The position numbers and the translations under genes are program-made. Below are positions 4,562 to 8,243 of a DNA stretch of 64,000 nucleotides, piece by piece (within the stretch, counting starts at the first letter, position 1; every line of letters starts with the position of its first letter). Source of the DNA: Pelagibacteraceae bacterium (GTDB lineage Bacteria > Pseudomonadota > Alphaproteobacteria > Pelagibacterales > Pelagibacteraceae); assembly GCA_018402735.1 (NCBI GenBank), contig JAGYIF010000001.1, forward strand, positions 310,001-374,000, read 5' to 3'. Below the pieces are notes generated by a model. The model worked only from the letters and a program-made list of their open reading frames with translations. It made no database searches and was not told where the DNA came from.

Positions 4562-6430
4562 TTAGTTATCCAAGAAACTTTTTAACTGTCTTGACCTACT
4601 TGGATGTTTCAATTTTCTTAATGCTTTTGCTTCAATCTGCCTTATACGCTCTCTAGTAACTGAAAACTGCTGACCCACCTCTTCTAAAGTATGATCGGTA
4701 TTCATTCCAATTCCAAATCGCATTCTTAAAACTCTCTCTTCTCTTGGTGTTAGAGTTGCCAGTACTTTAGTTGTAGAATTTTTTAAGCCTGTTTGAATTG
4801 CTGCATCTACAGGGATTAAGGCGTTAGTGTCTTCAATAAAGTCACCAAGACTGCTATCGTCTTCATCTCCTACTGGAGTTTCTAAAGAAATAGGTTCTTT
4901 TGCTATTTTAAGAACTTTTCTAACTTTTTCTAATGGCATTGCTAATTTTTTAGACAATTCTTCTGGGGTGGGTTCTCTTCCGTACTCACTCATCATTTGT
5001 CTAGAAGTTCTGACTATTTTATTAATAGTCTCAATCATGTGCACAGGGATTCTGATTGTTCTTGCCTGATCTGCAATAGATCTTGTAATAGCTTGTCTGA
5101 TCCACCATGTTGCATAAGTAGAAAATTTATATCCTCTTCTGTATTCAAATTTATCTACGGCCTTCATAAGACCGATATTTCCTTCCTGAATTAGATCTAA
5201 AAATTGCAAACCACGGTTTGTATATTTTTTAGCTATAGAAATAACCAATCTCAAATTAGCTTCAATCATTTCTTTTTTAGCTATTCTAGATTCTCGTTCT
5301 CCTTTTTTAATTTTATTTACTAAAATTTTAAAATCAGAAATAGAAATTCCAATTTCCTTACTTAATTTTATTAATTTTTCACGAGATTCTTTGAATAATC
5401 TTTGCTCGTTTTTAAAAAACTTGGACCAATTTTTATCTCCACTTAAGAAAGACTCAAAATTTGGATTTAATTCATTGCCAACGTAATATTTGATAAAATC
5501 ATCTCTTGAAATATTATATTTAAGAGCAGCACGCATTAAATCACCGTCTAGGTTAATAGCTTTTTTATTTTCATTATAATTTAAACTAACCAAATCTTCT
5601 TGAGTGACTTGGTTAAATTGCAAACCAAGCATTTCTTCCATGATTTCTTTTTTAATTTTTTCGTAATTTTTTTTCTTACTATCGCTAAATTTTTCTCCTT
5701 TTAGTATCGATTCTAGACTTTCGTTTTGATACGCAATTAATTTTTTATAATTTTTAGAAATATTAGCAAAAGTTTTGAGAATTTTTGGTTTTAATTCAAT
5801 CTCTAATGACGCTAGAGAAATATTATATTCATCCTCATCATCATCAGCAACTTCTGTGGTTGTTTCCTCGTTTTGATCTTTATCTTCTTTTTTATCTGGT
5901 TTTGCTTCTTTTGCTTCTTTTTTTGCTTTTTCCTTTATAGATTTTGCTAACTTATCATCATCTAAAAAGTTAGTATCAAGATCAATAATATCTCTGACTA
6001 ACATTTCATTATTTATTAATTTATTTTCCCATTCAAATATTTTCTTAGCTGTAACAGGGCTCTCAGAAAGAGAACTTACCATTACATATTTTCCAGATTC
6101 AATTCTTTTTGCGATTGCGATCTCTCCTTCTCTGGACAATAATTCAACTCCGCCCATTTCTCGTAAATACATACGAATGGGATCATCGCTTCTTTCCTGA
6201 TTTCGCGGTTGTTTAGCAGTTTCTGCTTCTGTTTTTTTAACTTTAAAATCAGATTTCTTTTTTACAAAAGTAATTGCTTGATCAAATATGTGTAGTACTG
6301 ATTTTTCTAAGCTTTCAACATTAGCATTTCTTTTACCTAGAGATTTTTGCAATTCCTCATAGGTAATGAAGCCCCTGTTAAGGCCCTTTTCTATTAATCT
6401 TTCAAATGATTTGGATATTAATTTTTCCAC
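4562..6430 (-). CDS. rpoD: RNA polymerase primary sigma factor RpoD (sigma-70)
   Basis: 622 residues. Region 1.1 is at the N-terminus, region 1.2 at [22 protein letters not shown], then a long variable insert containing a strongly charged run (about residues 165-205). The conserved core begins near residue 385: region 2 ([20 protein letters not shown] and [20 protein letters not shown]), region 3, and region 4 with the helix-turn-helix ([18 protein letters not shown]). It directs polymerase to most promoters; the -35/-10 pairs seen in this window fit it. It is downstream of dnaG, the common bacterial dnaG-rpoD order. Confidence 0.99.
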
Positions 6431-6482: not shown

Positions 6483-8243
6483 TTACAGATTATTGCTATT
6501 TTTCAATGAAATTAACTCATTTAAAGCTTGTTCATTCATATTCGAAGAAAATGTATTTTCTAATTCTTCTATTTTTTTATATTTGCGAATTCTTTCTAAT
6601 TGAATCTCATAATCATCAACTAAGTTAACAAAGGTTGCAAAATCAACATCCTCCATTAACGTATTAGTAGTCGAAAACTTAAAAAATAAATCAATATTTT
6701 TAATCTTTTGTGAGGCCAAGTATTCATTGATTTGATTAAGATTGAAATGCTGATTACCAATCAAAACATCTATAATTTTAGATTTGATATTTTTTGTTAG
6801 CTCCAAGTTTAAATTGATTTCTGATATTTTTTCTATGTGTTTTGCTGAAAATTCTGGAAACTTAATTAGTAATTGACATAGTGAAAACTCTTTAATTTCT
6901 AACTCCGACATTTCCAGTCTATTTAAATCAAAGGTACTGGCAATTTGAAACTTGCTTTGCTTATTTTTATTTTTTTTTATTAAATTTTCAAAAATTTTAT
7001 TTTTAAAAAAATTTCTATAATATTTTTTTATAATAGGGTCTTCTATAGTATCGGCAGTGTCCATCAATTTTTTTTCCAGTTCGGCCAAGGAAGAGGGACT
7101 ATGATTTTTTAATTGTCTTGCGCTATATTCAAATACAAATTCGGTTATATCTTTTTTTCTATTGATTAATTGATCAAAACCATCTTTTCCAAATTTATTA
7201 ACATAATCATCCGGATCTAGTCCTTGAGGCATAATCATAAAAGAAACTGTATGATTTGGTTTTGATATTCGTATGAGTTTTTCTGCAGCTCGGTAGGCTG
7301 CTGCAAAACCACTGCTATCTCCATCAAAGCAAATGATAATATTTTTAAAATTTCTCCACGCTAAATTAATCTGATTATCTGTGATGGCTGTTCCAAGTGA
7401 TGCGCATACATTTTTTATATCATGATTATAGAGGCTAACAACGTCCATATAGCCCTCAACTATCAAAAGATAATCCTGGTTTTTATTCTCATTTTTAGCA
7501 TTGTTAAAATTATATAAATTATTTCCTTTTTTAAAAAAAATTGTCTCTGGTGAGTTAATGTACTTCGCAGTCACAGAAGAAAGAACCGTTCTGCCTCCAC
7601 ATCCTATAAACTCTCCAAATAAATTTTTTATTGGAAAAATAATTCTATTTTTAAATCTTGCTACTAATGTTTTTCTTTGTTCATTCAAATAAAATAGCCC
7701 AGTTTCAATAAGTTCTTGCTGAGAATACCCAAGCTTTAAAAAATGATCACTTGCTTTATTGCTGTCATCGCAAAAACCAATTTGAAAAAAATCAATGGTA
7801 GTTTTTTTTAAAGATCTATTAGTAAGATAATCAAGGTGATTTTTATTTTCTTCTGTAAATAAATTTTTGTAGCAATAATTAAAAAATAATTGAAAAAGTT
7901 TTTCTGATTTTTTTATTTTTTTTTCTTGTTCAATATTAGTTTGAGAAAACTTGTATTCTTGCATTCCAGCTTTAGCTGCTAGTTTTCTAACTGCGTCTCC
8001 AAAGGTAAGTTTTTCAATTTTAACTAAAAAGTCAAATATCCCCCCGTGTTCTCCACTGCTAAAACAATGATAAAAACCTTTCTCGTCGTTAACAGTAAAA
8101 GATGGTGTTTTTTCATTTGTAAATGGAGACAATCCTACAAATTCTTTTCCCCTTTTCGTTAACTTAACTACGGAGCCAACTATATCGGATACTTTTAATC
8201 TTTGATTTATTTCTTCAAGGTATGATCTTGGGTACTTCATCAT
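6483..8243 (-). CDS. dnaG: DNA primase DnaG with degenerate zinc-binding domain
   Basis: 586 residues. DnaG makes RNA primers for replication. The order is N-terminal zinc-ribbon-type domain, RNA polymerase core with TOPRIM motifs (VEGYMDVVSLY and ICFDGDSSGFAAAYRA), and a weakly conserved C-terminal helicase-binding region. The zinc domain is unusual: where the family has C-P-F-H and C-F-x-C, this protein has S39-P-F-T42 and C60-F-S-S63, so only one of four ligands remains. The surrounding fold signature (NEKTPSFTVNDEKGFYHCF) is well kept, so this is not a frameshift. It overlaps yqeY by 4 bases and precedes rpoD. Confidence 0.97.
   Translation of the reverse strand: MMKYPRSYLEEINQRLKVSDIVGSVVKLTKRGKEFVGLSPFTNEKTPSFTVNDEKGFYHCFSSGEHGGIFDFLVKIEKLTFGDAVRKLAAKAGMQEYKFSQTNIEQEKKIKKSEKLFQLFFNYCYKNLFTEENKNHLDYLTNRSLKKTTIDFFQIGFCDDSNKASDHFLKLGYSQQELIETGLFYLNEQRKTLVARFKNRIIFPIKNLFGEFIGCGGRTVLSSVTAKYINSPETIFFKKGNNLYNFNNAKNENKNQDYLLIVEGYMDVVSLYNHDIKNVCASLGTAITDNQINLAWRNFKNIIICFDGDSSGFAAAYRAAEKLIRISKPNHTVSFMIMPQGLDPDDYVNKFGKDGFDQLINRKKDITEFVFEYSARQLKNHSPSSLAELEKKLMDTADTIEDPIIKKYYRNFFKNKIFENLIKKNKNKQSKFQIASTFDLNRLEMSELEIKEFSLCQLLIKFPEFSAKHIEKISEINLNLELTKNIKSKIIDVLIGNQHFNLNQINEYLASQKIKNIDLFFKFSTTNTLMEDVDFATFVNLVDDYEIQLERIRKYKKIEELENTFSSNMNEQALNELISLKNSNNL

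Follow-up and report, generated by a model that had tools for sequence, protein, structure and literature searches.

The dnaG locus and its ligand positions

The window analysed here is the whole stretch of 64,000 nucleotides taken from contig C1 of a Pelagibacteraceae genome (1.3 Mb, 30% GC). Its minus strand carries a dnaG open reading frame with an ATG start at 8243 and a stop codon at 6483-6485, which encodes 586 aa (Table 1). The protein scored 399.3 bits against the NCBIfam profile TIGR01391 (curated cut-off 283.6) and displayed the Pfam domains Zn_ribbon_DnaG, DNAG_N and Toprim. A profile search of the whole genome with PF01807 detected this dnaG and no second match. The gene is flanked by a YqeY-like open reading frame on one side and an RpoD-like sigma factor on the other, both named by sequence. 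This gene order is usual for housekeeping dnaG in Alphaproteobacteria, and the RpoD-like neighbour marks the gene as the housekeeping dnaG locus. In the DnaG tree, the named Pelagibacteraceae loci were placed among genomes of the same order, which together with the size and GC content of the genome points to an organism of the SAR11/Pelagibacterales type.

Table 1. Positions in the window of dnaG, its domains, the codons at and near the ligand positions, and the neighbouring sigma factor gene
Feature	Position	Strand	Basis
dnaG, complete bacterial primase, 586 aa	6483..8243	minus	TIGR01391, 399 bits
N-terminal CHC2-type zinc-ribbon domain (residues 1-95), without zinc site	7959..8243	minus	PF01807, 100 bits; model 0.8-1.3 Å from 1D0Q
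S39 (tct), first ligand position; Cys in zinc-type DnaG	8127..8129	minus	codons, 1D0Q alignment
T42 (aca), second ligand position; His in zinc-type DnaG	8118..8120	minus	codons, 1D0Q alignment
C60 (tgt), third ligand position, sole ligand kept; Asp in other zinc-free DnaGs	8064..8066	minus	
S62-S63 (agc agt): 62 is Gly in zinc type; 63 is the fourth ligand position, Cys in zinc type	8055..8060	minus	
E65 (gaa), covarying position	8049..8051	minus	column counts over aligned DnaGs
RNA polymerase domain (residues 107-424), normal	6972..7925	minus	E263, D267, D307, D309 invariant; 3b39 Z 35.9
C-terminal DnaB/SSB-binding domain (residues about 450-586)	6486..6896	minus	9eco Z 9.8, 6cbr Z 9.2
rpoD-like sigma factor, downstream of dnaG	4562..6430	minus	sequence and dnaG-rpoD order

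The TOPRIM catalytic motif (EGYMD, DGD) is present, and its four acidic residues E263, D267, D307 and D309 are invariant across 69 DnaGs. An AlphaFold model built from 69 DnaGs reached a full-length pLDDT of 92.5; its polymerase domain matched the solved structure 3b39 (Z 35.9) and its C-terminal helicase-binding domain matched 9eco over 128 residues (Z 9.8).

The N-terminal domain scored 100 bits with the PF01807 profile (cut-off 24.9), and the Cys-x2-His...Cys-x2-Cys pattern of the CHC2 zinc ribbon is missing from it. Alignment with the zinc-containing 1D0Q showed S39-P-F-T42...C60-F-S-S63 in place of CPFH...CFGC. The preliminary description of this DNA had reported the loss of three of the four zinc ligands from otherwise well kept surroundings, and both statements hold: codons and alignment place S39, T42 and S63 at the C, H and C positions, and the residues around the ligand positions are conserved. 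The range it gave, 8064-8243, covers S39, T42 and C60; S63, at 8057-8055 on the minus strand next to the S62 codon (8060-8058), lies just outside.

Elsewhere in the same assembly, the GC content of contig C12 (385 kb) was 54-64% where sampled in the first 160 kb and 28-37% where sampled from 180 kb onwards, so that the contig seems to be chimeric or a contaminant. Its GC-rich part holds a second L31 gene, unlike the other.

Occurrence of the zinc-free form and its signature

Alignment of related DnaG N-termini, as proposed in the preliminary description, revealed the zinc-free form in all 36 DnaG loci of the Pelagibacterales (the best-scoring 31 and five further ones), the usual motif being SPFK...CF[SA][ST]. 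The order sample was ranked by score, so that Cys/His forms, if present, would be expected on top and the sampling should not conceal them. The zinc-free form is old and fixed in Pelagibacterales. Within the order the serine at codon 39 is encoded by both TCN and AGY, a mixture that fits selection for serine itself.

The state recurs across the order, the class and several phyla. It is not peculiar to this genome, and a simple local loss is not supported. A sample of 175 alphaproteobacterial loci, mostly one or two per family, comprised 152 with CHCC, 22 with S-x-[CD]-[ST] and one with CHCA. In a sample of Pseudomonadota, the zinc-free pattern was found in 33 of 113 alphaproteobacterial genomes (one match being a non-DnaG protein) and in none of the 186 genomes from other Pseudomonadota. 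A scan of named genomes detected the motif, among the matches listed, in Bradyrhizobium, Nitrobacter, Ancylobacter, Methylobacterium, Bosea, Caulobacter, Asticcacaulis, Phenylobacterium, Henriciella, Parvibaculum and many Pelagibacteraceae and, outside Alphaproteobacteria, in Chlorobium, Corynebacterium, Empedobacter, Nevskia, one Calditrichaeota and one Patescibacteria genome; these genera are a lower bound, as the scan pattern admitted only TCN serine codons and the E-K pair. Higher groups with a zinc-free DnaG include Caulobacterales, many Hyphomicrobiales, Chlorobi and Bacteroidota. A zinc-free match labelled Marinimicrobia grouped with alphaproteobacteria and is probably a mis-binned contig. 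Among viruses, the primase of Caulobacter phage Sansa and those of several IMG/VR contigs carry the zinc-free form, the IMG/VR set being biased by search patterns that contained the motif stretch PFTNEKTP.

Two genomes of one family (L070/G528 and L119/G419, family f25) differ in the zinc state of their DnaG and make a good pair for a recombination-breakpoint search.

This distribution bears on the idea that SAR11 lost the zinc site in order to spare the metal in zinc-poor seawater. Two observations agree with it: the marine SAR11 type of the organism, and the zinc-less form of the L31 encoded in the same genome (L353, G000:C22). Against it, the DnaJ of this genome (L355) keeps all its CxxCxGxG motifs, and the zinc-free DnaG is also present in Bradyrhizobium, Caulobacter, Methylobacterium, Corynebacterium and Empedobacter, none of them an open-ocean organism. 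With the cysteines of DnaJ retained and zinc-free DnaGs common among soil and host-associated bacteria, the motive of zinc sparing is weak and the explanation unlikely.

We aligned 222 DnaGs, 210 from Alphaproteobacteria and 12 from other groups. The alphaproteobacterial sequences fell into 150 with CHCC and 60 with S-x-[CD]-[ST], with no mixed forms, and no intermediate between the two states was found among all 222. Zinc-type proteins have C39, H42, C60, G62, C63 and mostly A65. Zinc-free proteins always have S39; position 42 holds K, N, T, Q or S (rarely G or V), position 60 C or D, position 62 S or A, position 63 S or T, and position 65 mostly E or K. Among these, 62 and 65 are non-ligand positions that covary with the ligand positions; residue 65 is Ala in 77% of the zinc-type and Glu or Lys in 92% of the zinc-free alphaproteobacterial DnaGs. 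The 12 DnaGs from other groups showed the same S39/S62/[ST]63 pattern, of which only the positions other than S39 are independent evidence, as the retrieval pattern fixed S39.

Two candidate intermediates were rejected. The CHCA locus (L141, G468:C19) has an intein-like insertion right after C-F in a zinc-type background, and the SPFH protein of G918 is a different, mobile-element-like TOPRIM protein. The latter (G918:C27, L386) is 407 aa long, reads SPFHEEKTPSF...WYDFSIGEGG, also without Cys ligands, and is probably a mobile-element primase; similar motifs were observed in the viral contigs L165, L168, L169, L170 and L173.

Fold, constraint and history of the domain

The modelled N-terminal domain superimposed on 1D0Q with Z 17.1 and 1.3 Å over 99 residues. 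Modelling the domain from zinc-free sequences only, chosen to lessen the pull of zinc-type relatives, gave a pLDDT of 91.9 and, over 92 columns, a distance of 0.8 Å from 1D0Q. Since AlphaFold takes no account of metals and may force the family fold on a sequence, this normal zinc-ribbon fold is a prediction. Within the order, the N-terminal, polymerase and C-terminal domains have mean pairwise identities of 0.73, 0.42 and 0.25, respectively. The preliminary description had suggested a fold maintained without zinc rather than decaying, and the predicted structures and the identity of the domain both speak in its favour; decay is argued against because no other part of DnaG is as well conserved within the order.

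The same data weigh on the view that the domain is a relic without a role and that DnaG works by helicase recruitment alone. With three of four ligands gone, loss of the site could mean loss of sequence recognition, as a phage T7 primase that lacks the zinc domain synthesises random diribonucleotides only, in a DNA-independent manner (reviewed in PMC6163395). A relic is nevertheless very improbable, given that the N-terminal domain is the most conserved one in the order, that the full length is kept in every lineage examined and that the substitutions are uniform, not random.

A tree of the region downstream of the domain, the core, required 20 state changes between the zinc and zinc-free types, at least nine of them forced by well-supported branches, and a single zinc-free alphaproteobacterial clade was rejected on the core (AU test, p = 6e-5). 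The domain tree rests on 80 columns. After removal of the nine motif columns it required 14 state changes in the 222 rows, as compared with 21-32 for core pieces of equal length. In a 57-row set, the domain without these columns required five changes and was compatible with a single zinc-free clade (p 0.52), also after addition of the Chlorobi, Bacteroidota and Nevskia sequences (p 0.54), whereas 80-column samples of the core rejected such a clade (p 0.007-0.035). Pairs with a core identity of 0.30-0.35 shared a domain identity of 0.62 if zinc-free and 0.44 if zinc-type. The identity of Pelagibacterales domains to those of Alphaproteobacteria is 0.57 for the zinc-free and 0.48 for the zinc-type ones, with the cores at the same distance (0.27) in both cases.

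The domain and the core thus carry conflicting histories. Because the core rejects one zinc-free clade and the domain is compatible with one, the sequences point to either of two routes: the domain would have been swapped laterally, or it would have undergone the same remodelling on several occasions. Zinc-free domains group together even across phyla, which could reflect convergent composition rather than shared history.

One loss of the zinc site in an alphaproteobacterial ancestor, with the whole dnaG passed on vertically thereafter, would account for the many zinc-free orders in one class and for the contrast between the 33 of 113 alphaproteobacterial genomes (including the one non-DnaG match) and the 0 of 186 from other Pseudomonadota. 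It is highly unlikely in view of the 20 changes on the core tree, the opposite states of L070 and L119 within one family, the presence of the zinc-free form in other phyla and the rejection of one clade at p 6e-5, a value that holds under the model used and that better taxon sampling could soften.

Equally improbable is a replacement metal site made from other residues, for example C60 with H59, H66 or E65. The only Cys and His within residues 1-105 are H59, C60 and H66, which lie near one another in the sequence and are retained by about 90% of the zinc-free rows. A search for other residues that could supply a complete zinc site, raised as a counter-argument in the preliminary description, found none evident; H59 (18/22) and H66 (15/22) are also common in zinc-type DnaGs and therefore do not represent a newly made site, and the zinc-free DnaGs of Henriciella and the L134 genome have K59, D60 and G66 and hence no such cluster.

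A sequencing or assembly artefact that hides Cys/His codons has a negligible chance, even in an assembly with the chimeric-looking C12 elsewhere: artefact and chance are excluded because 36 of 36 DnaGs of the order, from independent genomes, agree in the absence of the ligands, and the window, which lies on C1, has the low GC content (30%) of the rest of the order.

Proposed working and significance of the zinc-free domain

Stabilisation of the ribbon and sensing of DNA are the roles ascribed to the zinc of DnaG (reviewed in PMC6163395), and in C. difficile a residue adjoining the ribbon affects the choice of trinucleotide (PMC5204125). Judged from sequence conservation and the predicted fold, the N-terminal domain described here is most likely a working, metal-independent template-binding domain. 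In the simplest reading, a serine/threonine-rich cluster would stabilise the ribbon, with side-chain packing and hydrogen bonds around S39, C60, S62-S63 and E65 holding it in place of Zn2+, and the domain would still select template sites. It would presumably bind the single-stranded template, select start sites and pass them to the TOPRIM core.

Taken as a whole, the gene probably encodes a housekeeping DnaG with a zinc-independent CHC2 template-binding domain that is fixed in Pelagibacterales and recurrently replaces the zinc form. In bacteria at large the zinc form would have been replaced several times, always by the same six-position signature, either through lateral domain exchange, phage primases carrying the form, or through repeated concerted change; both routes are possible. 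More tentatively, the template-reading domain of DnaG may exist in two interchangeable forms, of which the metal-free one would be a mobile module. Recombination at the 5' end of dnaG, possibly by way of phage primases, would repeatedly have put this module in the place of the zinc form, and it may bring its own start-site preference.

The protein shares its three-domain layout and catalytic TOPRIM residues with bacterial DnaGs that contain a CHC2 domain (TIGR01391/PF01807; 1D0Q of B. stearothermophilus, 2AU3 of A. aeolicus), as well as the predicted fold of the N-terminal domain and the dnaG-rpoD gene order. It differs from the zinc-binding enzymes in lacking the Cys3His site, with S39, T42 and S63 replacing C, H and C, and in the exchanges of G62 to S and A65 to E. 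With the zinc-free DnaGs of Caulobacterales, Hyphomicrobiales, Chlorobi, Bacteroidota, Corynebacterium and phage Sansa it has the six-position signature in common; in those proteins position 42 is variable (K, N, T, Q), Asp is frequent at position 60, and the core sequences show no close relationship to that of this genome. Ribosomal proteins such as L31 likewise occur with a zinc ribbon in a Cys form and in a Cys-free (C-) form, with switches between them. Their C- form is often a zinc-regulated paralogue, whereas the zinc-free DnaG is here the single copy of an essential replication enzyme. Our literature search, which covered mainly papers outside subscription journals, found no description of a zinc-free DnaG, nor any solved structure or assay of one.

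Overall, this is a known domain in an established and recurrent variant form. A natural and widespread zinc-free form separates the structural from the chemical role of the metal, and the role of zinc can be tested with ordinary Caulobacter or Bradyrhizobium enzymes. Many DnaGs are wrongly annotated as 'zinc finger CHC2', and primase inhibitors directed at zinc would be expected to leave the zinc-free ones unaffected.
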